Positions 816 through 23,066 of a stretch of 64,000 nucleotides of DNA are shown here, in pieces. This DNA is from Isoetes taiwanensis. Lineage: Eukaryota > Streptophyta > Lycopodiopsida > Isoetales > Isoetaceae. The notes below the pieces were generated by a model, which saw only the letters and a list, made by a program, of their open reading frames with translations, searched no databases and was not told the DNA's origin. The stretch lies in the NCBI GenBank assembly GCA_021234155.1, contig JAJEKV010000329.1, positions 186,001 through 250,000 of the forward strand, in the 5' to 3' direction. A program made the translations under genes and the position numbers. Numbering within the stretch: position 1 is the stretch's first letter; every line of letters begins with the position of its first letter.

Positions 816-861
816 TCTAGCCTCAAAACCCCCAAAAAGGTGCTCTGACCACAACACGATT
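816..861. repeat. left flank: half of a repeat interrupted by the transposon
   Basis: Sequence with AACCCCCAAAAAGGTGCTC followed by GACC..., then CACGATT (855-861). The same order (AACCCCCAAAAAGGTGCTCGACCGCGATTTTTGAG) occurs intact at 9205-9241 within the right flank. Here it stops at CACGATT, where the transposon end begins, and CACGATT plus the rest of the repeat (TTGAGTCCCC...) resumes at 9123. This supports an insertion at this point. Confidence 0.6.
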
Positions 862-912
862 GCAAATTAAACGGGAGTGTTGCATCACTCCCGTTTCAAA
901 GATTCCCTTTAA
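860..912 (+). repeat. left terminal inverted repeat of the transposon
   Basis: The outer 18 bases match the right end (9097-9114) at 16 positions in inverted orientation. It also contains its own hairpin: AAACGGGAGTG, a 6 base gap TTGCAT, then CACTCCCGTTT. The inner part CAAAGATTCCCTTT is shared with the right end. Confidence 0.6.
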
Positions 913-1441
913 AAAAACACCAAGTTTCTAAAATAAGCCTTTTTTTGATAGTTGTTGAGAATTTCTAGAGGTTCGCATTTTTTTTCATGCCATTTTGGCC
1001 CATCATTAGACGAAAACTTTGTACTTATGAAACAGAAATCATAAAAATAGCGAAATTTAGGCATAGACTTGAAGAGACTGAAAGCATTACAGAAAACAAG
1101 CACCAGAATAGAAAGGAAAAAAAAGTACTATGTTTTTAATAAATTGTTGTACATCAATATTGAAGATTCATTGTAATAAATAATGATAATTTAAATATGC
1201 AGAGTCAAAGATCTACATCATAGTCCTCCTCATTCTTTTGCCGCTCTACGCCATCTCGCCCTTCGTTCTATCTTGCTCCTTCTTTGGGAGACTTGAGTTT
1301 TTATCCTCCTTGTCCTTGGAATGGTAGCTAAAGCTACTTCTTTAAGCTCTCGCAAAGGTTGCCTCATCGTCTAGTGAGTGGAGAATGGAGGTCAGTATCT
1401 CGGAGGACGTTAGTTTAGCATAATCGATGAAGACTTGGCCC

Positions 1442-1870
1442 CTAGCTCTTGATGTTCATCCGTAAAGTAGGTAAAGCAGCCAGTCTCATCTTCACAAAAT
1501 TAACAGCATCCTTATCAATATCCACGGCTACACAGTTGCGGCCCTTCTTAAGTGCACATGCGATAGTAGTACCAGAACCAGAGAAAGCATCAAGCACCCA
1601 GTCTCCTGGACGCGAGAACATGTCCAGGAGATGGTTGATGAGCTTTTGTGGTTTCTAGTAGTGATTCACAATCCTGCCTTATGCAGTTGGGTCCTGCAAT
1701 TTCAGAACATCGCTGGAAACTCAAGGACGTTTGAGAAGTTTTGACAAAGGCAAATGTTGAAGTGTTCCATGGTCCTCTTCCCATCAAAACTCCAATAAGC
1801 TACATGAAGGTACTCTACCTTGCTAAGCAACCTTGGTCCTCCACCATGGTAGTTGATGTTCGTTTTGTAC
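1442..1870 (-). pseudogene. methyltransferase exon with motif I (SAM binding), C-terminal
   Basis: Last exon. The acceptor is TTTTACTAG before 1870 and the stop is the TAG at 1442-1444. In frame it reads RIVNHY, a stop, then KPQKLINHLLDMFSRPGD, WVLDAFSGSGTTIACALKKG, RNCVAVDIDKDAV. The core VLDAFSGSGTT (about 1565-1597) is the SAM-binding motif I of the N6_N4_Mtase family (usual form VLDPFAGSGTT), and the preceding KP..L...L is the typical approach to it. The acidic D in VAVDID matches motif II. The upstream half (YHGGGPRLLSK...EHFNICLCQNFS) is open in another frame, so at least one frameshift lies near 1700. The stop within HY-stop-KPQK is probably a point mutation. Confidence 0.8.
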
Positions 1871-2004
1871 CTAGTAAAACATTTAAAGTGATGTTTACTT
1901 AGCAAAAACAAGAACACACTTCGAAAACGAGAAGCAGGAAATACTATTCCGGAATACACTACGTAAGCAAAGAGAAAAGTAATCAGATTTCGAATAAGAC
2001 TTAC
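1871..2004 (-). other. intron containing one palindrome
   Basis: 134 bp between donor CAGTAAGTC (GT at 2004-2003) and acceptor CTAG (AG at 1872-1871). It contains one copy of the ATTCCGGAATACAC palindrome at about 1948-1961, the same word that forms the arrays at 2793-3010 and 4967-5150. Confidence 0.55.
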
Positions 2005-2440
2005 TGCATAAGGTTTTCATATATCCGAACCGGAGAACCAAAGTGGTTTTAAAAGTCGATTCTACCAAGCCGCATCGCATGCTCGAATGGAAAGTAACTA
2101 AACGCCAATGTTTAGCCGTTGTAGATCTGCTTTGATTCCATCAATAAAAGCATTAAACTCTGAAAATTTGAAGGGCTGGTCGTCATATCTCGGCTGTCTT
2201 TAAGCTTAAACCCGTAGGGAAGATCAGCAATAACCAAAGTGAAGTCCCGTGGCTTAACCGTCCGGACTAGGTTCGATTGCAATCACCATGAATGATTGAA
2301 TATAAATTGTTTTGATCAAACATGCGGAATCTCTCGTAGTCGGATGGTTCTAACTCACGATTCTTACGTCGACTAACGACCTCTCTTCCCGTCGTTTCTA
2401 ACCAAATGCATGAAGCCCTCGGGGAAGGTCTTTGTTTTTC
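2005..2440 (-). pseudogene. methyltransferase exon with motif IV
   Basis: Minus strand reads RELEPSDYERFRMFDQNN, LYSIIHGDCNRT, then after a one-base shift LVRTVKPRDFTLVIADLPYG (motif about 2211-2227), FKLKDSRD, and after a second shift YDDQPFKFSEFNAFIDGIKA. The pattern 'ii.GDC...l.....DLI.aDPPY' is the canonical entry of N4/N6 amino-methyltransferases; here the catalytic tetrad is DLPY rather than DPPY, NPPY or SPPY. The exon ends at the donor GCAGTAAGTC (2005). The upstream acceptor is uncertain, near 2440. Whether DLPY is ancestral to this lineage or a mutation of this dead copy cannot be told from one copy. Confidence 0.75.
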
Positions 2441-2518
2441 TTTTTGCTCGAGGAAAACATGACAACAACCGTAAGGAGATCGTGGTGTGCAAAGGCGAGG
2501 AATGTTGAGAGTACTTAC

Positions 2519-2655
2519 CCACCCTCAAAATTTGGTGCATATTGCACAATTCGTCGAAGCCGGTGGCTGAGTGGTAGAGTTCCTTGCACCTTTCCCATGT
2601 CTCTACGTTTATTTGCTCCATCAAACATGTTTGACATGTTATGACGCTCTTTTGG
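2519..2655 (-). pseudogene. short internal exon of the methyltransferase gene
   Basis: A 137 bp block framed by a good acceptor (CGTCTTGCAG, AG at 2657-2656) and donor (GTGGGTAAGTAC, GT at 2518-2517). One frame gives MEQINVETWERCKELYH, then TGFDELCNMHQILRV, and looks protein-like; another frame is also open across it. No known domain recognised. Its place between the helical block and the motif IV exon suggests a linker. Confidence 0.5.
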
Positions 2656-3072
2656 CTGCAAGACGTTAAGGAAACAATGAGTTAAAAGTAAGAAACAAGG
2701 CAAAGAAGAAGAAAAACAAATAAAAGTCAAGCTAAATGTATTTCGAATACAAAACCGGTTAATCGGTGATGTTACCTCTAAACAAAATGCATTGTGTATT
2801 CGAATACACATTGCTTCTCGAAGAAAGCAATGTGTATTCCGGAATACACAATATTTTTTTAGAAGAGGACATGTGTATTCCGAATACACATGGCTTCCTT
2901 TACATGGGCAATGTATTCCGAATACACATTGCTTGTCTCTAGAAAAGCATTGTGTATTCCGAATACACAATTGCCCATGTGAAGAAAGGTATGTGTATTC
3001 CGAATACACTATCTACCCCATGTTTTTGGGACTCTAACGCCTAAAGAGTAAAGTTTGTGGCGTAGATCTTAC
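2656..3072 (-). other. intron hosting a palindrome array
   Basis: 417 bp intron with donor CAAGTAAGATC at 3072 and acceptor TTGCAG at 2656. More than half of it is the regular palindrome array 2793-3010. Its borders are among the clearest splice signals in the window. Confidence 0.55.
2793..3010. repeat. array of six palindromes at about 40 bp spacing
   Basis: Six copies of TGTGTATTCCGAATACACA-like palindromes start near 2793, 2831, 2871, 2911, 2951 and 2991, so the period is 38-41 bp. The centre is TTCGAA, TTCCGAA or TTCCGGAA. The 20 bp between copies is not random: several gaps hold TTGCTT/AAGCAA or CATGGG words that extend the inverted symmetry. There are no cas-like genes and this is plant DNA, so it is not CRISPR. 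Confidence 0.9.
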
Positions 3073-3330
3073 TTGTGCAATTCCTTTGACATTTCTTCTA
3101 GGCTAAACTCCTTGTCAACAACTTTTTGGAGAAGCCTCTCCAGTAATCTCTCGTGGTCTGAGAAGCCCGCATTTCTCCGCAGACGGTAATGGTCATTTCT
3201 TTTTGGGCACGCGGATGATTTTTCTTGGCTGTCTCCTTGCCCTTGCTCTTTAACTCCCCTCGCTTGAACATTGAAAATATCTCGCCTTGGAGTTCCCAAA
3301 TCTGTTCAAAAGATTTCACGTGAGATAGTT
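3073..3330 (-). pseudogene. helical exon of the methyltransferase gene
   Basis: Two overlapping minus frames join through a one-base shift near 3190: FEQIWELQGEIFSMFKRGEL, KSKGKETAKKNHPRAQKEM, then RRNAGFSDHERLLERLLQKV, VDKEFSLEEMSKELHK, ending at a strong splice donor (AAGTAAGATC). The content is charged and helix-rich, typical of a linker following a ParB-like domain. No catalytic motif is visible. Confidence 0.55.
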
Positions 3331-3573
3331 GATTTGTTATTCGAATACGCTTTTGTGCTTACCTTGCCATCTCTAAAAGCTAATTGAAACCGGTTATCGT
3401 GGCCAATAAGAGATCGCCTTTTATTGGCCTCGTCATATTTTAGGGCAAAGATTCAATGGCACACGCCTCCTTAAGCTCCAAGGAAAACGCTGGGCTTCTT
3501 CAGTCCTCACCGCACTTTTCCTTGAAAATTACATTATTCTCGTGCATGAACGGATCTTGTCGATTTAAGCTCA

Positions 3574-3905
3574 TCTTTAGTTTATATTCGTTGTCGCGAT
3601 TGTGGGGTGTTGGCAACGATTTTCACTTCTTCATCGGGTAAGACCACAGTAGAGCGGCCAAGCAGAGGAGGGCGGAGAGGTACCTCGGGTTCTTCTTCTC
3701 TTTGTAAAGTTGCCTTCTTGCCTTGAAGCTGTGATTGCCTCCCAAGACGTAGTGAGTGTAGGTCTCTGCGTTTTCTCTGTCATAGTCCCGGGGTTTTTTA
3801 CCGCTGCTCCTCGTCAACAAGGACAACTATTGGGGCCACATGAGCATTTGATTGCTCCTTATTCTCGTCTTTCAGGTTCCTCAAGTGATTGCGTAAATTT
3901 TAAGT
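3574..3905 (-). pseudogene. ParB/Srx-like domain block
   Basis: Minus strand reads LRNLKDENKEQSNAHVAPIV, VLVDEEQR, then after a shift NAETYTHYVLGGNHSFKA, RRQLYKEKKNPRYLSAL, then after more shifts VKIVANTHNRDNEYKLKMS. The pattern 'PIVV....YVLGGNHS..A...L' matches ParB-like nuclease-fold domains (usual: P.vV....g.y.vi.G.hR..A), and '(A)..HNRDNE' resembles the stretch that follows this domain in bacterial ParB/methylase proteins. The GGNH core lies at about 3732-3750. The block is broken by a stop after DEEQR and by two frameshifts. Confidence 0.6.
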
Positions 3906-4253
3906 AACCTGAAGTGGCCTTTCACCAGCTTCATTTTTGGTGGAAGCTTCATACAAGTGGATCGGCAAATAAATAACACCTTGCACAAACTTGTGCGGTG
4001 TTTATCTCCTCCATTTTTTCAGATGTTTTATCAACTTTTTTTTTTCTTTGATAGCAACACCAGGTGCTTTGCCTTTCCCTTCTTCTTCTTTTGTGCCTCA
4101 GGAGCATCTTCTGTTGCAATCAAAGCCGTTTGCTTTTTTTTAGGCTCTTTAGCGGCAACGGTTTGCCTTTGCCACTTTGGTGGTGGTGACGGTGGCCTTT
4201 TCGTCGGACACTGATGGACTCCCAGATGGTGATGCACCGCCGGGCTATCCGGG

Positions 4254-4725
4254 TTATCTTCCCCTTCTTCTCGACTTCGCAGGGGAAGTCCTCGTTATTA
4301 GCTCGAACGTAGTTAATGATGGAACAGGCGACTTCTTGTTCAGGTAGTGAGAAACATACTTGTAAAGAGGATGTGGATTTACTTTCACAACTCTAAGGTA
4401 TGATTCATCAACATGAATAAAGCCTTGGGATGTCTGAAAAGAAAGTCTCCCTTCCTGACCGGACTCCCCAGCTACCTCACTGACGGCCTGGATGGTGCCC
4501 ATGCAGACAAATTCCCTGTCATCGTACCTTTTGGTTCCGTGGCTCGAAACGGACATGTAGAAAAAGTCGCAGCCGTACTTTCTGAAGTACCCCTTGTAAA
4601 GAACCATTGAGTCTGGAAGTTTTCGTAGATAGCTGGCGCAGCTGACTCCTCAAGCCTTCTCTGTGGGTGCGGTTTTTGTACGACTTTGAGGGGCCTTTTC
4701 TGTTGTTTCTTGCTGTTGTCTTGTC
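4254..4725 (-). pseudogene. N-terminal block of the ParB/methyltransferase gene
   Basis: An open minus frame of 117 residues, MVLYKGYFRKYGCDFFYMSV to ITRTSPAKSRRRGR, possibly spliced from an acceptor TTTGCACAG near 4730. It is compact and protein-like (YDDREFVCMGTIQAVSEVAG; TSQGFIHVDESYLRVVKV). I do not recognise the domain. A Lys-rich, Pro-rich stretch follows toward 3990 (KKKKGKAKHLVLLSKKKK), probably a nuclear-localisation or linker region. Because it shares strand and spacing with the ParB block it is read as the same gene. Confidence 0.45.
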
Positions 4726-4966
4726 TGTGCAAATTGTTTGTAAACACGACCTTGTTAGAGAAAAAAAAGATGGCAAAAACTGTTCCAGAATACAAAATGT
4801 CTTGCAAAAAGGGAAAAAAGAGGGCAAAAAGAGGACAAAAATGCCAAAAAAGCACTGCAATCTTGACAAAAAAACTGGTCTAAACAAGCTTTAAATGCAG
4901 CAAAAACGCCTAGATTAACTAAAAATCGCATGGAAAAGTAACCTCTTAAAACCTAAAAACACGAAA

Positions 4967-5150
4967 GTGTATTCCGGAATACACTTTTGCTTTCACTTTC
5001 AGAAAAGTATGGCCGGATATACTTTTGCTTTCACCGGAAAGTGTAGAAAAAGTGTATTCCGGAATACACTTTCGCCTTCGACTGAAGGCCAAAGTGTATT
5101 CCGGAATACACTTTCGCCTTCGAGTGAAAGCAAAAGTGTATTCGGGAATA
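4967..5150. repeat. second palindrome array (GTGTATTCCGGAATACAC)
   Basis: Four good copies and one diverged copy (GTATGGCCGGATATAC) of AAAGTGTATTCCGGAATACACTTT-type palindromes at about 4969, 5006, 5053, 5095 and 5135, roughly 37-46 bp apart. Spacers are again partly symmetric (TTTGCTTTCAC, TTCGCCTTCGA...). Half sites continue to 5400 (CGGAATACAG 5221, CGGAATACG 5359, GTGTATTCCAGAATAG 5392). The array lies just upstream of both divergent genes. Confidence 0.9.
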
Positions 5151-5550
5151 AGAAACAGACATGCAAATGATTGTACGTTGTACTTTCTTACTGACCTGTC
5201 CATGTTCTCTCTATGTAAATCGGAATACAGTCTCTGAATATTATAATCGGATACTGGCTATTGGGCGACTTGAGCTCAGAGACTGGAATACGCAACTGAA
5301 GGCGCCGAAATTTCCTTTTAAAGGTATCATTTTCGTCTTGCTCTTTTTCTATGTGATGCGGAATACGTTCAGCTTTACTATCCTACTCTTGTGTATTCCA
5401 GAATAGCTTTTATTTTGACTTTCACTTGATTAGTACTGGAACTTCTACTTGTACTACGTGGGCGGTATTAGGAATAAGAAAAAGCTCAGATTACAGAAAG
5501 TTTTCAAATCTCTTTACATTTTGCGCTTGTCAAGATGACGAACCGCTTAC
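5151..5550. other. intergenic region between the two divergent transposon genes
   Basis: No coding sequence recognised. It holds degenerate half-palindromes of the GGAATAC type and would be the shared promoter region if the two genes are divergently transcribed. No convincing TATA box chosen. Confidence 0.4.
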
Positions 5551-5934
5551 GTGAACAAGCTTCCACCACCTTTTGTTGTCTCAAGCTCGCCGGTTCCGAG
5601 GACACGCTTTGGGAACAACGCCATTTCTAGTGAAGACCGCATTCTCGAAGTCCTACCTGCGCTTCATCGTTGTTGCTTCTCGAAGACACACCGAGTCCAA
5701 AGACATAACAGACTTCCACCACCCTTCCAACCGTCACCAAGTCCTCGTGAGACAAACACACTGGCATCTCCTTCCAAAGAATCACCACTAGTTCGGAGCG
5801 GGTTGCCACCACCCTTTGTTCCATCCCCGGGACCTGCAGAAGCTCCACAACAAAGGGTGCTGAAGAACAAGCTACCCCCCTTTTATAGTTTAAGCCCCTT
5901 CGTGCAAACATACAAGGAACATGAAAACACGTAA
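5551..5934 (+). pseudogene. proline-rich N-terminal repeats (LPPPF) of the plus-strand gene
   Basis: An open plus frame of 127 residues with four repeats: KLPPPFVVSSSPVP, RLPPPFQPSPSPRETN, GLPPPFVPSPGPAE, KLPPFYSLSPF, spaced 23-48 residues. Low-complexity Pro/Ser tails like this are common at N-termini of transposase-like proteins. It ends at a stop 90 bp before the next plus-strand block, in a different frame, so it is either an upstream exon or part of the same decayed gene. Confidence 0.4.
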
Positions 5935-6027
5935 GACCGTGAGATTCACTACAATTCTCTCACCCGGGACTTCACTACAAATGAGGACGACGCTCCAGCA
6001 TGCACTCCTCTTCACACAACAACGGTT

Positions 6028-8754
6028 GTGACACATGGATTTGCAGAATTCCAGTCCGCTCTAAAGGAGATGTTTGCAAGAACTCCTTTTCAAGATGGTA
6101 CAAGAACAGCTGATGCCACAACCTCTTATGGGCCATCGCCATCCTTTAACACTGTACCCCCGCCTATTCCGGGAACAACTTCACGTGGTCTGTTTTCCTC
6201 TACAAGCACACCACTCAGGACAGAGGAAGTCACCCCCAGAGTAGAAGTTTCATCAGAAGATGAAGACACCAACGAGGAACAAAGAGATTACATGTTCTCA
6301 AGCCAATCTTCAAAGAAATTCAAGGTGGATTTTGGTTTGAGGGCGTGCTCCTCTGCAAGAAGAAGAAATCTTATGGATGAACACAAAATGAGGAGACTTT
6401 TGAGAACTAAATGCTGCTCATTGGGTTGCATCAACAGATTTAATATGGCTAAATTACGAGCAGTTAGAGACAACTACAGTTCCATGACATTGGCAGACCA
6501 GAATGCCTACTTAGCTTATCATGTAAGACCAGACCGCAACACCTTCTTGCACTACATTAACCGTCAAGAAGTTTGCCAGAAATGCTTTATGGTTGTCCAC
6601 CGTTTAGGGTCCACCGTAATGTCCAGAATACACAAAAAGGCGGACAAAAATCCAAAGAATCGATGATCATTGTGGGCCAAGAAGAGTTGTAACCATGCAT
6701 GCCCTTCTTTCTTTGTGTCATGGATGGAGAAATATTTTAGAGAAACATGTGAGAAGCTACCTAACAAAGCAACATGTATCATTTAACCGATAACATCACC
6801 AAAAAGATGTTTTTAATGAGTACAAAGAGACTTGCACTTTCGGCCAAAGACATCTCTTACTCACACTTCACCGGAAAATTGGAAAAGTGAATTCGGTCTT
6901 GTGAAAATTCCTAAAAACATAGAATGTCCGCTTGCTCGAGGTGTGCAGTAATTAAAGAGTCAACGAGAAACCGCAAAAGACAGAGGGTAAAGAAGTAAGC
7001 TCATGTTCTCCAATCTCTCACTTGTTTTGAGAAAATGTTTTGACCTGATTTCTTCTACAGATATTGTGCAATGTAACCTTTGCGGACATCGTGAACAACA
7101 AGCAGCAGAGAGAAGAAAGCTTGCCAAGCATAGAAAAAAAGCTCTTGAACGTCCACTGCAATACATGTCTGTTGTGATTGATGGAATGGACCAAAAAAAA
7201 AACAACTCTACCACATTTCTTGAACATTCCTAAGGATGTGCCAGAGGAATGTTTTGTTAAGGTCCACCTTGTAGGAGCTATGGTCTTCAAAGGAAGTCTA
7301 AAGTGCAAAAGTATTTTTGACGATCCAAACTTGCATGGTGACGAACCTCACAATTACAATTCTTAACAAGGTCCTCAGGCGAGCAAGAGCAATTACCACC
7401 AGTGCTTTATCTGCAACTTGACAATACTACAAGGGAGAACAAGAATCAAACACTCTTTGCGTACTGTGCCATGTTAGTGGAGCTAGGGATCTTTAGAAAA
7501 GTGAAGCTCGGTTTCTTACTTGTAGGCCACACTCATGATCAGATTGACCAAATGTTCAAGAGATTTTACGGCGCCTTTAGAAGGAAGAAGGCTTTTCGTC
7601 TTCCTTCTTTAGTCGAATTATTGAAGATTCTTACACTCCTACCCAAAGGGTCGATCTTCTTAAAGAGACCGCTGATTTTAGAGAGTTTGTTTTCTCTCAA
7701 CGCTCAAACAGAACAAGCCGTGAACAAGTTGAATGATCTCACCTTTTCAAAGATCATATCAAGTTCTACTTGAAGGATGGCCAAAGCTTCTTACAGGGGA
7801 AGAAGTATACCACAACCAAGGACTGAGTCCACCGGAGGGATTACGCTTCCTTAAATATATTCCGGACACTTCCTTCATAGAGCCGTCTTTGAACAACTTC
7901 CTCTCAAAAATCCTAAGGAGTCCAAGGTAAGAAAAGTACCCCGAGTCATCCTTAAAAGCCATTGAAAATGGAATTTCCTCAAAGCTTTAAGTACTTAGAA
8001 GAAGATCGGATGTGGTGGAGTAATTTCTTTTCTAACAGAAAATTGTTGTACAAAATATAGCTCTAAGACAGTTGCAAGAACCATTTCAATGGCCTAACAC
8101 CTTCCATCAACCCCAAAGACCAAGGTGTCCAAGCAAAGGCTACATTTGCACCGCAGTAGAAGACGAGGAGGACCGAAGTCATGTACCCTCGGACCAAGAC
8201 GCAGAATGAGCCTCAAGGTAATATCACGAAATTACCAAAGGTATGCTAATTGCTCTTCCGATCGAGGAGGATGACAAAGGTCGCACTGCTCGATAGCAAA
8301 AAGTGCTTGACACGGTCAAGGAGGAAGGCTTAGTCACTAAACTCAAGATTCATTGGCTTGCAACACGCCTCGAAAAATGCTTTTGAAGGTAGATATGAGT
8401 TAGAAATGAGAAGCCAAGGAAAAGGGAGAAAGTCCAAGAAGGTGGGTTGTAGACGAAAGCTGAACCTTAATGACGTGACTATTTTGTGCTATGATTTTAA
8501 ATTGAAATCGACAATCATCTACGAGAAGAAGACTATCAATTTGCTTAAAAAGCTTGTAATTACGAAGAAGATGATGAAGAAGGTGGTGACAATGCTTCAC
8601 CGTCTGTTGATAGTGATGAGGAAGATAACTCAAGCACTTCCTCGGATGTTGATGAAAGAAGTGAAGGTGATGACGATGGCATAAATGAACATGAAGACGT
8701 CCTGGATCCCTCTCTCTCATCACTCCTCACACTTTTGCACATAACCGAGTCTTA
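6028..8754 (+). pseudogene. DUF7869-type transposase-like protein, decayed
   Basis: Plus-strand remnant in several frames. Block 1 (6028-6666, 212 residues): acidic/Ser-rich start, then RRLLRTKCCSLGCINRF and VCQKCFMVVHRLGSTVMSRI, matching the Cys-rich entry of this family ('C......F.... R..Y..L...... VC..AF...lG.s...l'). Block 2 (7060-7200): CNLCGHREQQ and YMSVVIDGMDQKK. Block 3 (7396-7773): VLYLQLDNTTRENKN and FLLVGHTHDQIDQMF. The acidic residues of IDGMDQ (about 7180), QLDN (7420) and GHTHDQID (7525-7548) are the conserved positions of the domain I know as DUF7869, probably a transposase-like nuclease. Block 4 (about 7745-8010): WVPPEG-type tail. End: acidic tail EEDDEEGGDN...VDSDEEDN, stop at 8754. 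At least five frameshifts or stops. Confidence 0.75.
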
Positions 8755-9050
8755 GAAAACATTTGAATTTTGATGTGAATATGAAGATTCTATCTTCAAA
8801 TTTTGAGAATACTACAGTTTCAATTACTGGACTTACTTCAATTTTTTTGTTAAATATTTTATCCACTGAAATTAGAGTTTCTCTCTTTTAAAACATACTT
8901 TAAGAACATTCTTTTTGCTAAGAAAAGTGACACTTTAAAAAAGTCAATTCCTTCGTTGTAAAAAAATTAGTCATTTGGGGGTCAAAATAGAATTTCATGC
9001 ATCTTTTTTTTTTTTTTAACCTCATTTTACCCCTTTTTAAAAAAAAAAAA
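8755..9050. other. AT-rich subterminal region, no gene
   Basis: Runs of T and A (9007-9019, 9041-9052) and no coding pattern. It is the 3' flank of the plus-strand gene leading to the right transposon end. Confidence 0.5.
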
Positions 9051-9114
9051 AGGAATCTTTGAGGAATATTCCTTTTGCTCTCGTTTCAATGATTTGCTCC
9101 CGTTTAATACGCAA
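9050..9114 (-). repeat. right terminal inverted repeat of the transposon
   Basis: Minus-strand reading TTGCGTATTAAACGGGAG (9114-9097) pairs with the left end. Inside it AAAGGAATCTTTG and GCTCTCGTTTC correspond to the CAAAGATTCC and CACTCCCGTTTC words near 880-910. Confidence 0.6.
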
Positions 9115-9121
9115 CTTTGTT

Positions 9122-9310
9122 CCACGATTTTGAGTCCCCAAATTGGATTCTGAGCACCCTTTTTGCAGCTAGAGACCCCTCAAACTTTGGAACCCCAAAA
9201 CCCCCAAACCCCCAAAAAGGTGCTCGACCGCGATTTTTGAGTCCCCAAATTGGATTCTCGAGCACACGTTTACCAACCGAGACCCCCTCAAACTTTGGAA
9301 GTCAGCGCAC
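9122..9310. repeat. host tandem repeat, about 110 bp unit
   Basis: Two units: CCACGATTTTGAGTCCCCAA... (from 9122) and CCGCGATTTTTGAGTCCCCA... (from about 9230), each with ATTGGATTCT, GAGCAC, GAGACCCC and CTCAAACTTTGGAA. The left flank of the transposon (816-861) is the end of another unit. Confidence 0.75.
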
Positions 9311-9942: not shown

Positions 9943-11128
9943 ACTCAATGTTCATCACTCGGACACCATGACCACGGGGAGAGGAGTGGGCAATGCGAGG
10001 CGATGGTCACCGTGTCTCGGCTTCAGTCAGAGGTTGAGGAAGCCACCACCATGGCACGGGGGCGCCGAGCTCTTCCATCTGACGAACCCCGGCTCGGGTT
10101 CTTGAGCACGTCGGAGCAGCAAGCCCGACTCTGGATGCGGATGCCCTCAGGGGCACCGGGCGCGGCGCCGCTACTTAGAGCACGGAGCTCGGGTTGCGGC
10201 GCAGCCATCCATAGAGCGGGGCGGGGTCTCCCCTTTTGAGGTTCATGTTCGGTGCTTGCGGTCTGCCGAGGAGATGGTGGCTGCGGCCGCCCGAGGCCAC
10301 AGAGGCTTTTGTGCTCCCGACTTCCACCGGGGAGGCAGGGGACTGGCGGCTCGGACCGCTACCCGCCAACCCCGGTATGCACGGCGCACTTGTGCCCGGC
10401 CCGGGGACCAGGACCTGGCTGCCCGCATTCAAAGCCACCATCGCCATCCACGGCCACCCACCACCACCACCACCACCACCACCACCACCCGGCCACGAGC
10501 CCCGGCCCTCGCCCTGCTGACCCGCGGGCGCATAACTCAAAGAGCGTGGCGGAGGCCACAATCTGGTAGTGCAGGGGCATGCGGAAAGAGGAGGGAGAGT
10601 CTTGCCCACAACATCCGAACACATTCTCGTCGGATGACATTCCACAGGCGATTCACATTTCGGCGGCTTACCATGGGGCTCGGCGCCCATTAAATGCCAT
10701 TGTCATATTAGCGGTTCCCGGATCTTGCAGTCGCGTGATGCCATATTGCGCGCGGGGGCAAGATCTTTGAAGGGGCGTCCTGTCGTGGGCCAGGGACCTC
10801 ACACCCGACAGCGGGGAGGCACGCAGGCGGGGAAGCTTGCCGAGGTCGAGGCATCCACCACCAAGGGGATGCCCACGGGGATTGGTTGAGGCGGGGATGC
10901 ACTTTTTTACGCCCGACACACTCAGCTGCTGCAGGACCTTGCAGCCCCAATTCTGGTGAGCGTGGCCCTGCCTTCTCCTACCATAGCCCCCCTTCTCCTG
11001 CTCCTACTCCTGCTCCCTCGACCCGCCCTCTCGGCCACATCTTTTGCCTCAGCTCCATCTACTTCTCACCCGACCTCTGCTTCAAAGTCCTCCCCGCGAC
11101 TTCGTTGCGCATACCCTTCTTGTTGACA
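9943..11128 (+). other. LINE interior, GC-rich, low complexity
   Basis: Open frames exist on both strands because of high GC content, including a poly-Gly/Trp or poly-His frame over the (CAC)n run at 10459-10490, but none looks like a conserved domain. It lies between the ORF1-like and endonuclease parts of the LINE. Confidence 0.4.
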
Positions 11129-11630
11129 AATAGGAATTGTTCCTCGGGTGGTCTCATGGAATTGTCGAGGGTTTCTCTTGGCGAGAAGGGGGCGATCTCA
11201 ACTCGTGGCAGTAGATATGGATCTCGTCTTTCTCATGGAGACATGGGAGCATCTTTGAGCCACAGGCTACGATCTGTAGGGTTACCAATATTTCTCGGTC
11301 TTCAATACCTGTACATGATAGAGGGGTCATGGTGGGGTTGCTTGCTACTACCGGACAACCTTGGCACATTCGGTTACCCTCGAGAAAACGAGCCGGACAC
11401 AAGCCGGTACTTGTGGGTTCATGTGCATAATACCGGTGACAACCCTCTTTTTTTACGGTGCTGTTGTTATTTCCCTCAGAGAGAGCACCTTCTATCGCAG
11501 CCACTCCGATGCGGATAGGATGGACCCTTATGTCAATCTATATGATGACATACAGCAGCACAAGCAGTTGGGTAGGGTCGTCCTTCTTGGGCATTTCAAT
11601 GCACGGACAGGAGTAGAGTAGCCCGGCAAC
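11129..11630 (+). pseudogene. LINE endonuclease (EEP family) domain remnant
   Basis: The first frame reads VPRVVSWNCRGFLLARRGRS and DMDLVFLMETWEHL, the classic N-terminus of APE-type LINE endonucleases (WNCRG; ...L.ET; the E is a metal ligand). A later frame reads RMDPYVNLYDDIQQHKQLGR, VVLLGHFNARTG; the usual motif is GDFNAR, so the catalytic Asp is replaced by His here. The joining part is frame-shifted around 11260-11480. Confidence 0.7.
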
Positions 11631-14380: not shown

Positions 14381-14730
14381 TCAAAGAATATGAGAATAAG
14401 ATACTGTTGAGAAAGACGAGGAAGAGTCGATGAAGCATTGATGAAGAACCTTCCATTAAGATGCCATCTCCCAAACGGACCAGAGTGCTAAAAAAATGCA
14501 TGCAATGAATGCATGCAAGACATGCATGCTCGCCCTTTCTAGAATCTTGATCCAATGTATCGAATTGATGGGATTATCATAAAGCCCACTTGGACTCCCC
14601 ATAGCCTCAACTAGTGGGTCGATTATTTCTTTAAATTAAAAGACTTTGATGACTATAGTTGACATCTGAGGTTTTTCGCATCAATGACCTAGTGGGGCCC
14701 CATGATTGGGATCATTTTGCCAACTTAGAT
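14381..14730. repeat. direct repeat DR1 beside the left inverted-repeat arm
   Basis: 350 bp nearly identical to 16504-16816 (same strand). Both begin TCAAAGAATATGAGAATAAG and end CCAACTTAGAT. DR1 has an extra block of about 37 bp with repeated GCATGC words (14495-14530). The sequence is also distantly related to the inner end of the left arm (16150-16340). Confidence 0.85.
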
Positions 14731-16480
14731 ATATGCAATGGGAACCAACATTGCAACCTTATCAACCATTTGAGCCACTTGAAAAATATTGCAAATGCAA
14801 TTTTGTTGTGCTAAATGCATCAGCAACTCTATAACAACTAGCTAGAAAGAGTGAATTTTTTTTTGAGGGTTTTTTTTTGAAGAGGGCATAGAGGGTTTTT
14901 AAAAGGATCTATTTAAATATTACCATATGTTTCCTTGTCCTCCAATTCAAGATGGATTGCCCCCCAGTATTAATCTTTGTGGTCAACAACGCTTCTTGCC
15001 TACTAGAACCTTTGGCATATTAGAGAAGATCAAGAGGATGAAAAAGAGAGAGACATACAAAACAAAAATATGCAAGGAGAAAACAACAAATCCAATTTCC
15101 ACTGTGTCAAATCCAACACGCAAGGAAGGGTGAAAAGAGTACATGATACCGGTAAAAGAATTCTGCGGATGTGAAGCTGGAGCATGAATTGACTTATACT
15201 CTATTAGAAGAAGTATGACAACAACGTTCTTATAAAATGTCTTACTCTAGAAACCACAAAAGAGAGAAATATAAGGATATCCTAGTGCCATGGAAGTAGA
15301 AGTGGCAAAAAATATAATAGTAGAGGAAGATACACCGGCAATAATTCTATTATTGAACTATCCGATGCTATACACCAATGGAAAGTTTACAGTCCAGGCT
15401 TTCCAAATCACCAAAAAACGCCTGAATCCGATCCTCGGGGAGAGAGATATGCATAGAAATGTCAAACGATGTCTCATATGGCGCCTTCAATGACCCCTTC
15501 TTTGTTGCAACATCAACGTTGATGGGAAGTGTCTCCTTGCATATGGAGATTCTTCTTCTAATTTTTTGAATAAAGGAGGCTCTCTACCCCCAACCCTTTA
15601 TTGCTTGTGTCTCCAGCATGTCTTCGTCATGACATTCTAGAATTGGGCTCACATGACTACGAAAAAATTGATAGATAGACTTCTCATTCATCTCAGCAGA
15701 TTTTCTATAATAGTGGATAGTGGATAGCCGCACACCTATAAACTACCTATAAAAATGAAAATTATAAAGAATATTCAATTACACAACTTGAACCCTAAAA
15801 TATATAATATTAATAGATGTTGATTGGTGTACCTGCCCTGCCCTTTGAGGTTTTCGAGGAAAACCCTGATAAGCCCTCAACAAGGGGCGTGGACAAACAT
15901 AAGACTGAATAATCGCTCTCATAAAGAACCCACGAAGGAAAAAGTTGAAGTAGCTTGCCATCCTGTATCATTAACACTAGAATATAACATGAAAAAACAA
16001 ACCTCCCAAAATGAAGGGGCTGATCATGCGTGCCACGTGACAAAACAACCTCTTCAACTAGAGGGGCTATTCAAGCATACCACGTGCAAATTACATTAAA
16101 CAAAGAAATGGGGATTTGGTTGGGAAGAGAGGGGAATGGGCTTCAAAAATTGAGAATAAGGTACTGTTAAAAGAGATGATGAAGCGCCGATGAGACGTTG
16201 ATGAAGAACCACCGCGCATTAAGTAGCAATCTCTCAAATGAACTAGAAGCCCAAAATATACATGCATGTGTACGAGACATGCATGCCTGCCAATTCTAGA
16301 ATTCTGATTCAATGGCTCAGATCGATGGCATTCTAGAATTGGATTCGGATCAATACGACAAAACTCCCGATAAGAAGAGGACTTTAGTTTACAAGAACAA
16401 GGTCGAAAGTCGAAGGAATCTGTCCAAAGAAGATAGAAAGCCAAGAAAAAAATGCCACAATGAGGAAAGAAATACCAAGT
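14731..16480. repeat. left arm of a long inverted repeat
   Basis: About 1.75 kb that reappears in inverse at 24463-26786. Matching landmarks: 14740 with 26775, 14950 with 26560, 15290 with 25700, 15620 with 25310, 16000 with 24930, 16300 with 24630. Apart from a 525 bp LINE insertion and about 45 bp extra in the right arm, the two arms are collinear and very similar by eye. Confidence 0.9.
15290..15720 (-). pseudogene. captured gene fragment, left-arm copy
   Basis: Inverted, further decayed copy of the coding-like segment at 25199-25580. Minus-strand reading keeps the words for INVDVATK and for the NEKSIYQFF part. Near 15560 the junction sequence differs from the right arm. Function unknown. 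Confidence 0.4.
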
Positions 16481-16816: not shown

Positions 16817-17404
16817 AACCATTGTGACGTCCCCTACTTCTCTACGATGCTCCCATCATATTGGAAGACGGAGTTCATCCCCTTGGCAGCCAAGCTGACA
16901 GAGGCCGTCCACCTGACACCAATCCTTTAGCAATGGATTGATGAGGAAGAATGGACAGGTCATTTGTCTGTCTTCCCTCGGGACTGTCCTAGCTGCAGAA
17001 GCGTAAATAAACGTAAGCACATGACATCAAATGCAAACAGAATCACCTTGAAGGGCGATTGCACCATAGCATACATGTAAAAACACATCAACAATATCAT
17101 CATCACATGGGAGATCCTACCCAAGGCTCAGACTCCAGGGTATGGACTGATGGCTTGGGTCTCCCAGAAGTCATTGCAGACAAAATTCATGAGAGTGGAT
17201 TGGGCTGGTATAGGAATATGGCTGTTGGGTAGTCCGCTCCATCCGCCCCTCTCGTGTACACTTTGCAGAATAGGTTGAAGAGTCTAGGGACTGGACCATA
17301 GCCTGCCGGGTGCGTCGCCAAAGGGGCTACTACTGGGTTTCATCTCCCCAGCCCCGATGAGGCAGGAAGGGGATCACCCCCCGTCCAGAGGCATGCATGC
17401 CCAT
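16817..17404 (+). other. unidentified coding-like remnant before the LTR insertion
   Basis: A plus frame gives SYWKTEFIPLAAKLTEAVHL then, past a stop, QWIDEEEWTGHLSVFPRDCP, CRSVNKRKHM, and later ILPKAQTPGYGLMAWVSQKS. It looks like decayed protein sequence, probably of a mobile element, but I do not recognise the family. The LTR retrotransposon is inserted at 17404/17405. Confidence 0.35.
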
Positions 17405-17744
17405 TGTTAGTTGTGAGTTCTTGGCATACACCTTGCAGCAGCAGTCTATGACTGCCGGATGATACAAAGTTGCCATGCTCATGATCACAAAACAAGAACA
17501 AGACAAATAAATATGTACAAAGAGTGAAGGGAACGTGGCCAAATGAGGCTCTCCAAATATGAGATCAAACCTGAGTACATCTGAAGAGGCTCCGGTCTAA
17601 TATAGTGTAGACCGCAAATCTGAGCCCTACATCTAACTAAATCTATACCATACACTTAAGTTAACCTAAGCATGCCAAGTGTCAGCCTGCCACCACTGAC
17701 ACCTAACATGTGCATGCACAATGTTAACCACTAGGTGGTTAACA
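17405..17744 (-). repeat. LTR 1 (3' LTR of the left unit)
   Basis: 340 bp with TG...CA ends. Its outermost 23 bases TGTTAACCAC-TAG-GTGGTTAACA (17722-17744) form a perfect inverted repeat. It differs from LTR 2 at about one position (17687 region, C versus T). Confidence 0.93.
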
Positions 17745-17760
17745 CTGCCTCCCCCTAAAA
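17745..17760 (-). promoter_or_regulatory. polypurine tract, left unit
   Basis: Minus-strand TTTTAGGGGGAGGCAG directly upstream of the LTR start TGTTAACC. This is the expected position and composition for plus-strand priming. The same sequence is at 20405-20420. Confidence 0.85.
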
Positions 17761-20046
17761 GTTTTTAGCACAAAAACATGTACAGACTTTTATAAGACAA
17801 GTCCGACAATTACAACATGGTGCCAAAAATTTTAGGGGCGAAAATGATGGTAATGGTTGGGTTGTGTCGCCGTAAAAGATCTTCATGAATGTGTCGATGA
17901 CGGATAAGATCCGAAAGAATGTCAATGCAGAACGTGGATCATAGGAACTGGGCAAGAAAAATATGAAGACTATCCCATTATATCAAGGGGAAGTCCATTT
18001 GAACAAACAATGCCCAAAATTTTACTTACAAACAAGTATGATAGGGGCTTAAAAAAGTAAGCACCATAAAAGCGTGCCCCGTGATCAGCCATAGGGGAGC
18101 GTAAGCGTGGGCGTCAGCGTGGCCCGTGGGTCAGCAGCATGAGCATGGAAAATAAAAAGCATGAAGAGCGTGGCAAAGCGTGGGTCTTAAAAAACAGAGC
18201 GTGGGTTTTGTGAGGACAAAAATTACAGAGCGTGGCTTTTGCGTGGTCAATCTGCGTGGTTAATTTGCGTGGTCAATCGTGGGCAAAAATACAGAGCGTG
18301 GGCTGTGATCGTGACTTTTTAATTAGCGTGCCGTGAGCGGTTATCAGCCAGCAAAAATATTTTGCCTGTGGCGTGGAACGTGACCCGTGGGTACAAGCGT
18401 GGGTGCCCTGCACGTGAGTAGGGCACGGCAAGAATATAGGGTACCCTAAAAAGTGCAGAAAGGGGCGGCCAAATCTGAGCCGTTGAGGGGAAAAACCCTA
18501 GCATGAGCTGCAACCCTAGCCGAAAATGCTCTGTACTGCCGACCTGCAATGGTGCAGGTAACCGGATTTGAAGGTGAAAGTGCTGGTTCTTGCTTAACAC
18601 AGATGCAAGCTGGAAGTTACTAATTTGGTATAGCGGATATGATGCCGAAATATGAGCGCTTATGGATAGGAACTGGCCGGTGGTGCACAGGAATGCTCAA
18701 ATCTTCAGAAATGATGGCCAGAAATTGTTGCAACAGTGAAAACTTGATGGATGCAGACCAAAAATCGGTGCCCACAGAGGCTCAAAGCCATGGGTGACGT
18801 ATAGATGAGGAAGAAGCCAAGGGATCAATAGGTAAAGTTGAAAATAAATTGGTGCTCCAATCACGGCCGGAACTGTAATGTGCTGAGAATGCTTGTGTGT
18901 AGATGATGAAGACCAGAGAGACGTGAGAAATCCGAGTTTGAGGCTTCAAGGTGGAAGAGTTTCTTCAATCCAATTTGTGCTTGAATAGTTCTCTATAACT
19001 GGTATCTGCATGGAGCAGATGAATGGGGGCTAGTAGGGATGCTGGCCCTCTTAAAAACTCAATAAAAAATAGGATCATTTGTGTGCGGTAAAAAGGCATC
19101 GATGGAATGTATAGAAGGAAGAACTTGAATCCTTCTAGAGCCGGAAATGCGAGAATGATTTCTTTGTACTGATAAAATGAAACTTTAGTGCAGGTACTGG
19201 CAGGACAAACAAGTGATAGGAGTTGCCCCAACTCATGGATTCTGAGCTTCCTTTTGAATGTATGCAGAGACCGAGCTGAGAAGAACTAGAGAAAAAGGGC
19301 TGCACCAATTCTGAACCCAGGTAAAGCCTAATGCTTGAAATAATCCCTGTGGGCGCTCCAAATGAACTGACCATAATCGGAACTGTGATGCAGGGACTGA
19401 GATGGGCTGCATAAAGCATGCTACGATTTTTCTTGTAACAGGGTATGAGGGCTAGCCAGAGTGCTGGCCCTCCACAAAAATAAAACAAGAAAGCTTTGAA
19501 AACGTGTTCTGGATGCCAATAAATGAAGTGCTCCTGCACAAAGCTGCCCCAAAGCATGTTTGCATATAGCTGCACCAAATAAGATTGGAAATTTTTGATG
19601 TGCAGAATAGAGTTGTGCTGCACGAGTTTTTGGAAAAATATTGAGGAAAAGACAATCAAATTATTTTTAGAGTTTGCTGAAAAACCTGTAAGCAGGAATA
19701 AGAACGACCATAAAGGATTCAAAGTGTGATTTTTTTGATGATCTTGCACAGTGGAGTGCTGTCACCACTCCAGAAATCCTTGACTGCAAACTGGGCTTGC
19801 TGCACCTTAAGAACAGGGTCTTGAGAACAGATTTACGAGATTAAATGGATCAGCTGGCAGAATCATCAACTGTTTTGAAAAATTAAAGCCTTCAAGCGGA
19901 TACAGGAATCAGGAATCGACTTGGTTGGGCAAACTAAGGAAATCTAAAGGGTGAAGAATAGTATACAAGAAGTCTTCAAAACAGAGAAACATGAGAGCAG
20001 CAAGACAACAGCAGGCAGTAAGGCGAAGGAAAGTGATCACGAGCGA
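17761..20046 (-). other. internal region 1 of the LTR element
   Basis: About 2.3 kb without a recognisable retroviral domain. The longest minus frame (19135-19749, 204 residues) is hydrophobic/aromatic and Ser-rich with no zinc knuckle, protease or polymerase motif; it is conserved in copy 2 simply because the copies are young. 18080-18420 is packed with the word GCGTGG. The internal regions differ in one block: 19075-19098 here versus about 21735-21757 in copy 2. Confidence 0.8.
18081..18420. repeat. GCGTGG-rich motif cluster, copy 1
   Basis: More than fifteen occurrences of GCGTGG or CGTGGG within 340 bp, including GCGTGGTCAAT and AGCGTGGGCT phrases. The same cluster is at 20741-21080. It is irregularly spaced and noncoding. 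Confidence 0.75.
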
Positions 20047-20063
20047 CCCCGGCAACGGCGCCA
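20047..20063 (-). promoter_or_regulatory. primer binding site (tRNA-Asp type), left unit
   Basis: Minus-strand TGGCGCCGTTGCCGGGG, one base after the end of LTR 2. It is complementary to the 3' end expected for plant tRNA-Asp (..CCCGGCAACGGCGCCA). Confidence 0.9.
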
Positions 20064-20064
20064 G

Positions 20065-20404
20065 TGTTAGTTGTGAGTTCTTGGCATACACCTTGCAGCA
20101 GCAGTCTATGACTGCCGGATGATACAAAGTTGCCATGCTCATGATCACAAAACAAGAACAAGACAAATAAATATGTACAAAGAGTGAAGGGAACGTGGCC
20201 AAATGAGGCTCTCCAAATATGAGATCAAACCTGAGTACATCTGAAGAGGCTCCGGTCTAATATAGTGTAGACCGCAAATCTGAGCCCTACATCTAACTAA
20301 ATCTATACCATACACTTAAGTTAACCTAAGCATGCCAAGTGTCAGTCTGCCACCACTGACACCTAACATGTGCATGCACAATGTTAACCACTAGGTGGTT
20401 AACA
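20065..20404 (-). repeat. LTR 2 (shared middle LTR)
   Basis: 340 bp, serving as 5' LTR of the left unit and 3' LTR of the right unit, with no extra bases on either side. A polypurine tract follows at 20405-20420. Confidence 0.93.
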
Positions 20405-22703
20405 CTGCCTCCCCCTAAAAGTTTTTAGCACAAAAACATGTACAGACTTTTATAAGACAAGTCCGACAATTACAACATGGTGCCAAAAATTTTAGGGGCG
20501 AAAATGATGGTAATGGTTGGGTTGGGTCGCCGTAAAAGATCTTCATTAATGTGTCGGTGACGGATAAGATCCGAAAGAATGTCAATGCAGAACGTGGATC
20601 ATAGGAACTGGGCAAGAAAAATATGAAGACTATCCCCTTATATCATGGGGAAGTCCATTTGAACAAACAATGCCCAAAATTTTACTTACAAACAAGTATG
20701 ATAGGGGCTTAAAAAAGTAAGCACCATAAAAGCGTGCCCCGTGATCAGCCATAGGGGAGCGTGAGCGTGGGCGTCAGCGTGGCCCGTGGGTCAGCAGCAT
20801 GAGCATGGAAAATAAAAAGCATGAAGAGCGTGGCAAAGCGTGGGTCTTAAAAAACAGAGCGTGGGTTTTGTGAGGACAAAAATTACAGAGCGTGGCTTTT
20901 GCGTGGTCAATCTGCGTGGTTAATTTGCGTGGTCAATCGTGGGCAAAAATACAGAGCGTGGGCTGTGATCGTGACTTTTTAATTAGCGTGCCGTGAGCGG
21001 TTATCAGCCAGCAAAAATATTTTGCCTGTGGCGTGGAACGTGACCCGTGGGTACAAGCGTGGGTGCCCTGCACGTGAGTAGGGCACGGCAAGAATATAGG
21101 GTACCCTAAAAAGTGCAGAAAGGGGCGGCCAAATCTGAGCCGTTGAGGGGAAAAACCCTAGCATGAGCTGCAACCCTAGCCGAAAATGCTCTGTACTGCC
21201 GACCTGCAATGGTGCAGGTAACCGGATTTGAAGGTGAAAGTGCTGGTTCTTGCTTAACACAGATGCAAGCTGGAAGTTACTAATTTGGTATAGCGGATAT
21301 GATGCCGAAATATGAGCGCTTATGGATAGGAACTGGCCGGTGGTGCACAGGAATGCTCAAATCTTCAGAAATGATGGCCAGAAATTGTTGCAACAGTGAA
21401 AACTTGATGGATGCAGACCAAAAATCGGTGCCCACAGAGGCTCAAAGCCATGGGTGACGTATAGATGAGGAAGAAGCCAAGGGATCAATAGGTAAAGTTG
21501 AAAATAAATTGGTGCTCCAATCACGGCCGGAACTGTAATGTGCTGAGAATGCTTGTGTGTAGATGATGAAGACCAGAGAGACGTGAGAAATCCGAGTTTG
21601 AGGCTTCAAGGTGGAAGAGTTTCTTCAATCCAATTTGTGCTTGAATAGTTCTCTATAACTGGTATCTGCATGGAGCAGATGAATGGGGGCTAGTAGGGAT
21701 GCTGGCCCTCTTAAAAACTCAATAAAAAAATAGGATCGCTGTGTGCAGGTGCAGACTGATGGAATGTATAGAAGGAAGAACTTGAATCCTTCTAGAGCCG
21801 GAAATGCGAGAATGATTTCTTTGTACTGATAAAATGAAACTTTAGTGTAGGTACTGGCAGGACAAACAAGTGATAGGAGTTGCCCCAACTCATGGATTCT
21901 GAGCTTCCTTTTGAATGTATGCAGAGACCGAGCTGAGAAGAACTAGAGAAAAAGGGCTGCACCAATTCTGAACCCAGGTAAAGCCTAATGCTTGAAATAA
22001 TCCCTGTGGGCGCTCCAAATGAACTGACCATAATCGGAACTGTGATGCAGGGACTGAGATGGGCTGCATAAAGCATGCTACGATTTTTCTTGTAACAGGG
22101 TATGAGGGCTAGCCAGAGTGCTGGCCCTCCACAAAAATAAAACAAGAAAGCTTTGAAAACGTGTTCTGGATGCCAATAAATGAAGTGCTCCTGCACAAAG
22201 CTGCCCCAAAGCATGTTTGCATATAGCTGCACCAAATAAGATTGGAAATTTTTGATGTGCAGAATAGAGTTGTGCTGCACGAGTTTTTGGAAAAATATTG
22301 AGGAAAAGACAATCAAATTATTTTTAGAGTTTGCTGAAAAACCTGTAAGCAGGAATAAGAACGACCATAAAGGATTCAAAGTGTGATTTTTTTGATGATC
22401 TTGCACAGTGGAGTGCTGTCACCACTCCAGAAATCCTTGACTGCAAACTGGGCTTGCTGCACCTTAAGAACAGGGTCTTGAGAACAGATTTACGAGATTA
22501 AATGGATCAGCTGGCAGAATCATCAACTGTTTTGAAAAATTAAAGCCTTCAAGCGGATACAGGAATCAGGAATCGACTTGGTTGGGCAAACTAAGGAAAT
22601 CTAAAGGGTGAAGAATAGTATACAAGAAGTCTTCAAAACAGAGAAACATGAGAGCAGCAAGACAACAGCAGGCAGTAAGGCGAAGGAAAGTGATCACGAG
22701 CGA
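20405..22703 (-). other. internal region 2 of the LTR element
   Basis: Nearly identical to internal region 1, including the GCGTGG cluster (20741-21080) and the 204-residue frame at 21792-22406. One block around 21728-21760 is clearly different (TAGGATCGCTGTGTGCAGGTG versus TAGGATCATTTGTGTGCGGT in copy 1), plus a few single-base changes. Confidence 0.85.
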
Positions 22704-22720
22704 CCCCGGCAACGGCGCCA
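22704..22720 (-). promoter_or_regulatory. primer binding site (tRNA-Asp type), right unit
   Basis: Same 17 bases as at 20047-20063, one base from LTR 3. Confidence 0.9.
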
Positions 22721-22721
22721 G

Positions 22722-23061
22722 TGTTAGTTGTGAGTTCTTGGCATACACCTTGCAGCAGCAGTCTATGACTGCCGGATGCCACAAAGCTGCCATGCTCATG
22801 ATCACAAAACAAGAACAAGACAAATAAATATGTACAAAGAGTGAAGGGAACGTGGCCAAATGAGGCTCTCCAAATATGAGATCAAACCTGAGTACATCTG
22901 AAGAGGCTCCGGTCTAATATAGTGTAGACTGCAAATCTGAGCCCTACATCTAACTAAATCTATACCATACACTTAAGTTAACCTAAGCATGCCAAGTGTC
23001 AGTCTGCCACCACTGACACCTAACATGTGCATGCACAATGTTAACCACTAGGTGGTTAACA
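22722..23061 (-). repeat. LTR 3 (5' LTR of the right unit)
   Basis: 340 bp. It differs from LTR 2 at about four positions (for example GATGCCACAAAGCTG versus GATGATACAAAGTTG near 22777-22790), roughly 1 percent. It is followed by the target duplication CCCAT. Confidence 0.92.
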
Positions 23062-23066
23062 CCCAT

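Follow-up and report, generated by a model that had tools for sequence, protein, structure and literature searches.

The window analysed here (64,000 nucleotides of the quillwort Isoetes taiwanensis; GenBank assembly GCA_021234155.1, contig JAJEKV010000329.1, positions 186,001 to 250,000 of the forward strand) contains a complete transposon at positions 853-9121 (8,269 bp), in which a methylase gene and a gene for a DUF7869 protein stand in divergent orientation. The element is delimited by inverted ends, a 4-bp target-site duplication (TSD) and full-length copies in the same genome. It is part of a large transposon family in I. taiwanensis, larger than could be seen in the original prediction, which had been made from the letters of this DNA. 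We read it as a member of a family of autonomous DNA transposons, ~8.2-8.7 kb long, that bring their own DNA-modifying enzyme, with the methylase probably acting on the element's own DNA (probability about 0.62).

Terminal inverted repeats (TIRs) together with TSDs fixed at 4 bp at independent sites place the element among the cut-and-paste TIR DNA transposons. The TIRs are 25 nt each, with 80% identity between the arms. Inverted ends had been predicted and are present, the element beginning nine bases ahead of position 862, where its start had been placed. The flanks, described in the original prediction as halves of one repeat, do read by eye as a single unit of a local repeat (left GGTGCTCTGACCAC, right GATTTTGAGTCCCC); the same unit recurs at ~9215-9250, and the repeat search found flank pieces in common at 821-845/9201-9225 and 9128-9151/9235-9258. 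The local repeat, of ~107 bp, occupies 9128-9300, and the transposon is inserted in it. The element and its ends are as follows:

849-852, no strand: left TSD, CCAC (sequence)
853-9121, no strand: complete transposon (TIRs, exact 4-bp TSD, full-length copies in the genome)
853-877, plus strand: left TIR, AACACGATTGCAAATTAAACGGGAG (repeat search, genome-wide end pattern)
871-894, no strand: hairpin-like repeat ACGGGAGTG-TTGCAT-CACTCCCGT, directly inside the left end (sequence reading)
9097-9121, minus strand: right TIR, read on the minus strand as AACAAAGTTGCGTATTAAACGGGAG (repeat search, genome-wide end pattern)
9122-9125, no strand: right TSD, CCAC (sequence)

The genome searched was the window's own assembly (1,658,258,908 bases in 1,110 records), which is nanopore-based and Illumina-polished (PMC8566536; this and the other papers cited by PMC number are represented by excerpts), so that some frame breaks may be sequencing errors. 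With positions 862-9122 as DNA query, the best 20 of 4,563 candidates were scored. The query is matched over its full length by L002 (88%) and L004 (87%) and, except for the final 120 bases, by L003 (88%); the others match in part. The loci studied were these 20 and two later ones picked for their long DUF7869 frames (L037 and L038). Methylase-side matches (pieces of at least 100 bp at element positions below 2,200) were found in 18 of the 20, with no clear match in L018 and L023. All 14 full-length copies, namely the 13 of the 20 loci having both ends and L037, carry an exact 4-bp TSD, all of them different and none reaching 5 bp. The end pattern occurs genome-wide at 1,611 places (825 + 786) and its reversed control at 0, which excludes a chance origin of the ends. 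Among the first 100 places listed, taken in contig order and not as a random sample, 27 facing end pairs lie within 20 kb, 13 of them spanning 7.9-8.8 kb and five 3.38-3.78 kb. The whole-interval search proposed with the original prediction has therefore been run, and copies holding both genes between the same ends were found repeatedly, in a fixed order.

The linkage of the two genes was counted in two lists, the best 150 of 2,028 candidates for a methylase exon query and the best 150 of 8,166 for the DUF7869 core. Within 25 kb of each other, at least 43 methylase-DUF7869 pairs have the divergent order of the element, at least 30 of them 5.1-6.2 kb apart (chance, 0.68), and two pairs have another orientation. 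When the Pfam model served as methylase query (best 150 of 1,443, all 150 over the cut-off), at least 42 pairs were divergent, at least 31 lay at 5.1-6.2 kb and one was otherwise oriented. Since the lists are ordered by score and hold the best 150 each, these counts are lower bounds. The two genes do travel together on a mobile lineage, as had been proposed, and the opposite result, the genes always apart, was not seen.

The methylase-side gene lies on the minus strand, and its exons are separated by GT-AG introns (read by eye):

1442-1870, minus strand: C-terminal methylase exon, conserved part, limits approximate (PF01555; the same exon in L009 matches PF01555 at 4.5e-18)
1565-1591, minus strand: motif I, DAFSGSGTT, in the C-terminal methylase exon (frame coordinates)
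2095-2440, minus strand: N-terminal methylase exon, limits approximate (frames; phrog_67 match)
2211-2225, minus strand: motif IV, DLPYG, in the N-terminal methylase exon (frame coordinates)
2656-3072, minus strand: intron with donor GTAAG and acceptor TGCAG, by eye, containing palindrome array 1 (sequence, repeats)
3302-3362, minus strand: short intron GTAAGC...CAG, by eye, with the palindrome variant TATTCGAATA at 3338 (sequence)
3363-3990, minus strand: ParB-resembling region, limits approximate, its frame broken in the window copy and open in L011 and L019 (frames; phrog_723 weak)
3728-3745, minus strand: LGGNHS in the ParB-resembling region (frame coordinates)
4254-4700, minus strand: N-terminal domain matching no known family, with approximate limits; open in L011, L003 and L009

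The C-terminal methylase exon matches PF01555 (N6_N4_Mtase) over 1442-1654 with E 2.1e-15 (57.7 bits versus a cut-off of 26.7), and the joined read-through of both methylase exons matches the phrog_67 DNA methyltransferase with E 2.4e-19. With DLPYG and DAFSGSGTT both placed, the predicted methyltransferase with motif IV followed by motif I is recovered, and this order assigns it to the beta class of the N6_N4_Mtase enzymes. For the open methylase exon of L009, the top PDB match is CcrM (6pbd, 1.8e-8), joined by MboII and RsrI among the nearest solved structures; N4-cytosine enzymes are among the weaker matches. The D in the first place of DLPY we take as a hint of N6 specificity. Across loci, DAFSGSGTT is exact in 20 of 26, DLPY is kept in at least 18 of 25 and LGGNHS in 13 of 19. 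We consider it probable, judging from these sequence features, that the gene encodes an active beta-class DNA methylase, presumably one that methylates adenine at N6.

Upstream of the methylase exons, L011 has one open frame of 501 aa that joins the N-terminal domain, a basic linker and the LGGNHS region. The N-terminal domain has no Pfam match above cut-off. The ParB identity proposed for the GGNHS block could not be sustained: the Pfam search of the region gave no ParB match (best DUF6551, E 0.048), and the phrog_723 ParB-like profile reached E 0.088, 0.4 and 0.083 in three copies, below every threshold. As no profile match is above threshold, the region is labelled only "ParB-resembling". 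Thus, among the profiles suggested as a check, N6_N4_Mtase and DUF7869 (see below) are above cut-off and ParB is without a significant match.

The element also contains palindromic repeats, located at:

1945-1956, no strand: single palindrome core TATTCCGGAATA, in a methylase intron (sequence)
about 2785-3012, no strand: palindrome array 1, in the methylase-gene intron (repeats)
4964-5150, no strand: palindrome array 2, GTGTATTCCGGAATACAC and variants at ~42-bp spacing, between the divergent genes, at the left edge of the recombination joint described below (repeats)

Within the window, all five occurrences of TATTCCGGAATA fall inside the element. Counting close variants, the 20 loci hold 227 cores, and a slightly narrower core pattern gives 11.2 per locus versus 0.02 in first-order Markov sequences. 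Of the spacings below 70 bp between neighbouring cores, 58 of 95 are of 41-42 bp, the modal value, or about four DNA turns. The full 18-bp palindrome is found at 2,585 places genome-wide (control, 0) and at none in IMG/VR; in lineage C (the lineages A, B1, B2 and C are set out with the trees below), it is unchanged four times in L037 and four times in L038.

Two of the five listed end pairs of 3.38-3.78 kb were read, L040 (3,492 bp, TSD TAGC) and L041 (3,406 bp, TSD TGAG), and both are gene-less derivatives, with no match at E 0.01 to the methylase, ParB-resembling, N-terminal-domain or DUF7869 peptides. They retain the left 62-67 bp, in which the hairpin-like repeat at 871-894 falls, ~260 bp of the right end and a nearby array, with one exact 18-mer and variants ~42 bp apart in L041 and variants only in L040. 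Their interiors have little in common with the full element and resemble each other only in part. The original prediction had counted against itself inverted ends that lack either gene more often than by chance and belong to an unrelated repeat; gene-less copies with the same ends do exist, and they fit non-autonomous derivatives. That both derivatives kept an array is the best evidence for a cis-acting site, and we favour the view that an element protein, be it the methylase protein or the transposase, binds the arrays as putative cis sites.

The arrays could, however, be bound by the transposase alone while the methylase acts elsewhere, which we hold to be somewhat unlikely. The sole need of a gene-less derivative should be transposition in trans, and the 18-mer is unchanged in lineage C despite diverged methylase-side proteins, so that nothing ties the palindrome to the methylase over the transposase. 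On the other hand, palindromes are present in the methylase-gene introns too, and array 2 lies mid-element in full copies, unlike transposase sites, which are usually close to the element ends. It is improbable that the targets of the methylase are host genes or the DNA of incoming rivals and not its own element: a diffusible enzyme need not stay confined to the element, but the dense, element-specific palindrome arrays suggest local action.

The second gene lies on the plus strand:

5535-8755, plus strand: probable transposase gene, encoding a DUF7869 protein, with inferred start codon and exon limits; frame changes at several places in this copy (PF25273)
7171-7194, plus strand: VVIDGMDQ, candidate first catalytic Asp, role inferred (frames)
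7414-7431, plus strand: QLDNTT, candidate second catalytic Asp, role inferred (conserved motif)
7525-7548, plus strand: GHTHDQID, candidate third acidic site, role inferred (conserved motif)

It matches PF25273 (DUF7869) at 7342-7773 with E 1.3e-33 (116.6 bits versus a gathering cut-off of 26), improving to E 1.5e-40 in the joined read-through. This agrees with the predicted DUF7869-type gene, whose QLDNTT and GHTHDQID motifs were both placed. Open frames of 987 aa (PF25273 173.7 bits, E 4.4e-51) and 857 aa are found in L038 and L037, respectively. A Pfam scan of ten element open reading frames (ORFs) gave only DUF7869 and N6_N4_Mtase above cut-off. Acidic motifs that may correspond to the catalytic residues of a DD(E/D) transposase are conserved in the DUF7869 pieces. 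Since these motifs are conserved and no further long gene was found in the element beside the methylase gene, the DUF7869 protein is very probably its cut-and-paste transposase. Its C-terminal part (GMLIALPTEEDDKGRPFWIAKVLDT in L038; L037:5799-8369, L003:8239-9369) presumably resembles a small barrel of the chromatin-reader type; no Pfam match above cut-off was obtained for it in L037 or L038. The protein might instead be an accessory factor, the family being moved by a transposase encoded elsewhere, given that DUF7869 is a Pfam domain of unknown function, that no sequence relative was found in PDB and that the catalytic residues are inferred only. Against this stand the conserved acidic motifs, the long open frames and the lack of another long gene among those found, and we regard it as quite improbable.

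The selective constraint on the two genes was estimated by Nei-Gojobori counts between lineages A and B1, as proportions of synonymous (pS) and nonsynonymous (pN) differences. For the methylase exons, pS and pN are 0.74 and 0.034 (C-terminal) and 0.86 and 0.110 (N-terminal); the ParB-resembling exon has 0.85 and 0.058, and the N-terminal domain 0.56 and 0.094. Three DUF7869 pieces from these loci have pS values of 0.08, 0.04 and 0.19 and pN values of 0.016, 0.072 and 0.075. The methylase and ParB-resembling exons are thus synonymously saturated with few replacements, a clear sign of old purifying selection between lineages. Among A copies, dN/dS is 0.21 in the N-terminal methylase exon, 0.07 in the ParB-resembling exon and 0.50 in the N-terminal domain.

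Several observations weigh against our reading. In addition to the subthreshold ParB match, to the palindrome that nothing ties to the methylase and to linkage counts that rest on best-scoring lists and concern the listed DUF7869 copies only, the frames of both genes are interrupted by frame changes in the window copy, and the class-C methylase exon examined (L037) is decayed. Of the aligned copies, stops interrupt 6 of 19 for the C-terminal methylase exon, 3 of 15 for the N-terminal exon and 2 of 7 for the ParB-resembling exon, as well as 3 of 15, 6 of 18 and 4 of 11 for the three DUF7869 pieces. Between A and B2, pN in the N-terminal methylase exon is 0.274. In the DUF7869 pieces, pN rises to 0.22, probably through frame breaks, and dN/dS is 0.23-0.76 over the groupings. 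The C-terminal methylase exon has a dN/dS of 0.54 at dS 0.04 among A copies, indicating weak recent constraint. Many present-day copies are decaying.

The broken copies and the weak constraint among recent class-A pairs are what one would expect if the methylase gene had been picked up once by a DUF7869 transposon as a passenger and had since lost its function. This is very improbable in view of the synonymous saturation with low pN between A and B1, and only 4 of the best 150 of 2,028 candidates have a stop inside the 69-aa methylase match, in a list that favours intact copies. Contamination from bacteria or viruses, or an artefact of assembly, which the mainly bacterial and phage distribution of this methylase class and the non-axenic growth of the sequenced plants (PMC8566536) could suggest, is rejected given the GT-AG introns, the copies on scaffolds up to 44.6 Mb, the differing TSDs and the lack of a close relative in the searches of IMG/VR (one viral contig at 39% over 57 residues), prokaryote genomes (one scan), phages (tblastn) and PDB.

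The two halves of the element have different histories. Compared with the window copy in segments of 300 bp, the left half is 73-98% identical in A copies and 52-86% in B copies except L023, whereas from element position 4,801 onward A and B alike are at 82-98%, except for the cut end of L003. Trees were made by a quick method for 17 loci with L037 as outgroup; in the methylase part, L023 resisted alignment and its tree position has little meaning. In both left-piece trees, A forms one side of a branch with a support of 100, and B1, B2 and C are apart. In the right-half tree, A and B are intermixed: A needs 5 changes, and 163 of 500 shuffles needed no more. A topology that groups all B rows is rejected by the right half (p-AU 1.2e-5) and is not rejected by the left pieces (0.23 and 0.40). 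Since pS is saturated on the methylase side versus 0.04-0.19 in the DUF7869 pieces, the methylase halves have recombined with the transposase halves, at or beside array 2: the joint lies at element positions ~4,140-4,700, a stretch bounded by array 2 and the beginning of the DUF7869 gene. Five B copies carry their own TSDs and therefore moved after the halves were joined. The simplest cause of the joint would be template switching during gap repair at the array. Shuffling of specificity by exchange of methylase halves was considered as the main idea and dropped: in an alignment of four C-terminal exons (two A and two B1, with B2 and C left out), A and B1 share 86-87% identity with mainly synonymous differences, and the stretch up to and through motif I is nearly invariant.

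As for how the transposon might work, the DUF7869 protein would act on the element ends and move the element, an element protein would bind the palindrome arrays, and the methylase would act at the arrays and mark the element DNA. We suggest tentatively, at somewhat less than even odds, that this marking controls expression from the promoter region common to both genes, the competence to transpose, or both, or else protects copies against silencing. A more specific version, by analogy with ParB on parS, is speculative and rather doubtful. Here, the ParB-resembling part would load on the phased palindromes ~four helical turns apart, and N6-methyladenine (6mA) would spread over full and gene-less copies, a self-addressed methylation by which marked copies stay visible to the transposase and escape silencing. 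In this version, the methylase half would be a cassette that can be swapped, the palindrome array being where it meets the transposase half.

Depletion of CpG was considered as a sign of silencing and set aside, the observed/expected ratio being 0.75 for the element, 0.62 for the remainder of the window and 0.45 for L037, values that are uninformative either way. Elsewhere in the window, a ~2.66-kb unit is repeated head to tail at 17401-23062 (a 3,007-bp self match at 99% and a 345-bp third piece), and inverted pairs of 300, 315 and 1,153 bp (97-98%) at 14725-16480 and 24463-26788 frame this tandem as a large near-palindrome. An inverted 939-bp pair (27973-28906/54637-55572, 97%, ~26 kb apart) is either an element present twice or the two termini of a single large element. 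There is also an (AG)n microsatellite of 94.5 units at 48540-48727 and a GC-rich stretch at 10739-11620, whose translation may resemble the endonuclease of a long interspersed nuclear element.

Among known systems, the bacterial and phage beta-class methylases (CcrM 6pbd, MboII, RsrI; phrog_67) share sequence matches and the order of motif IV before motif I with the quillwort methylase, the phage enzymes at 26.7-29.2% identity in the best 12 of 990 rows; unlike them, it is encoded by a plant gene that is spliced and has an additional domain at the N-terminus. Sola transposons resemble the quillwort element in TSD length, theirs being 4 bp as well. The Sola superfamily and other eukaryotic transposons with 4-bp TSDs are named in PMC4455052. 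DIRS1-type retrotransposons (PMC3537659, PMC5890265) are likewise eukaryotic mobile elements with an N6-adenine-methylase-type domain. They differ as retroelements with a reverse transcriptase and a tyrosine recombinase, families without a match above cut-off in the ten ORFs scanned with Pfam, no search aimed at them having been made. Their domain is termed Dam-like (PMC5890265) and, in the elements of PMC3537659, catalytically inactive, whereas motifs I and IV of the quillwort enzyme are kept and constrained. Dinoflagellate and charophyte retrotransposons encode cytosine DNA methyltransferases (DNMTs), for which self-methylation has been proposed (PMC5890265), and the same paper cites marine-virus DNA transposons encoding DNMT. 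The cytosine-DNMT retrotransposons share with the quillwort element a self-encoded DNA methyltransferase, but DNMTs are structurally unrelated to adenine methylases. Fungal DNA transposons encode TET/JBP dioxygenases (PMC12730594): as in the quillwort element, a base-modifying enzyme lies beside the transposase, and the enzyme genes pass between transposons, comparable to the module exchange seen here. They differ in that the enzyme is a 5-methylcytosine oxidase and not a methylase, and in that the transposases belong to other superfamilies.

Among the titles and abstract starts listed in searches of the literature, none describes a DUF7869 transposon with a methylase. On that basis, the pairing of a CcrM-type methylase with DUF7869 in a transposon is new, whereas base-modifying enzymes in transposons and methylases in retroelements were already known. 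The presence of 6mA in plant DNA has been questioned (PMC12695648, in survey passages on MT-A70 enzymes). A constrained CcrM-type enzyme in many transposon copies offers a defined gene, a defined place to look for 6mA and a simple test, and makes self-marking by a plant transposon testable. The joining of old methylase halves to a young transposase half near an array is a clear module exchange in a eukaryotic transposon, and, with this family, a methylase would join the base-modifying enzymes already described from DNA transposons of eukaryotes.

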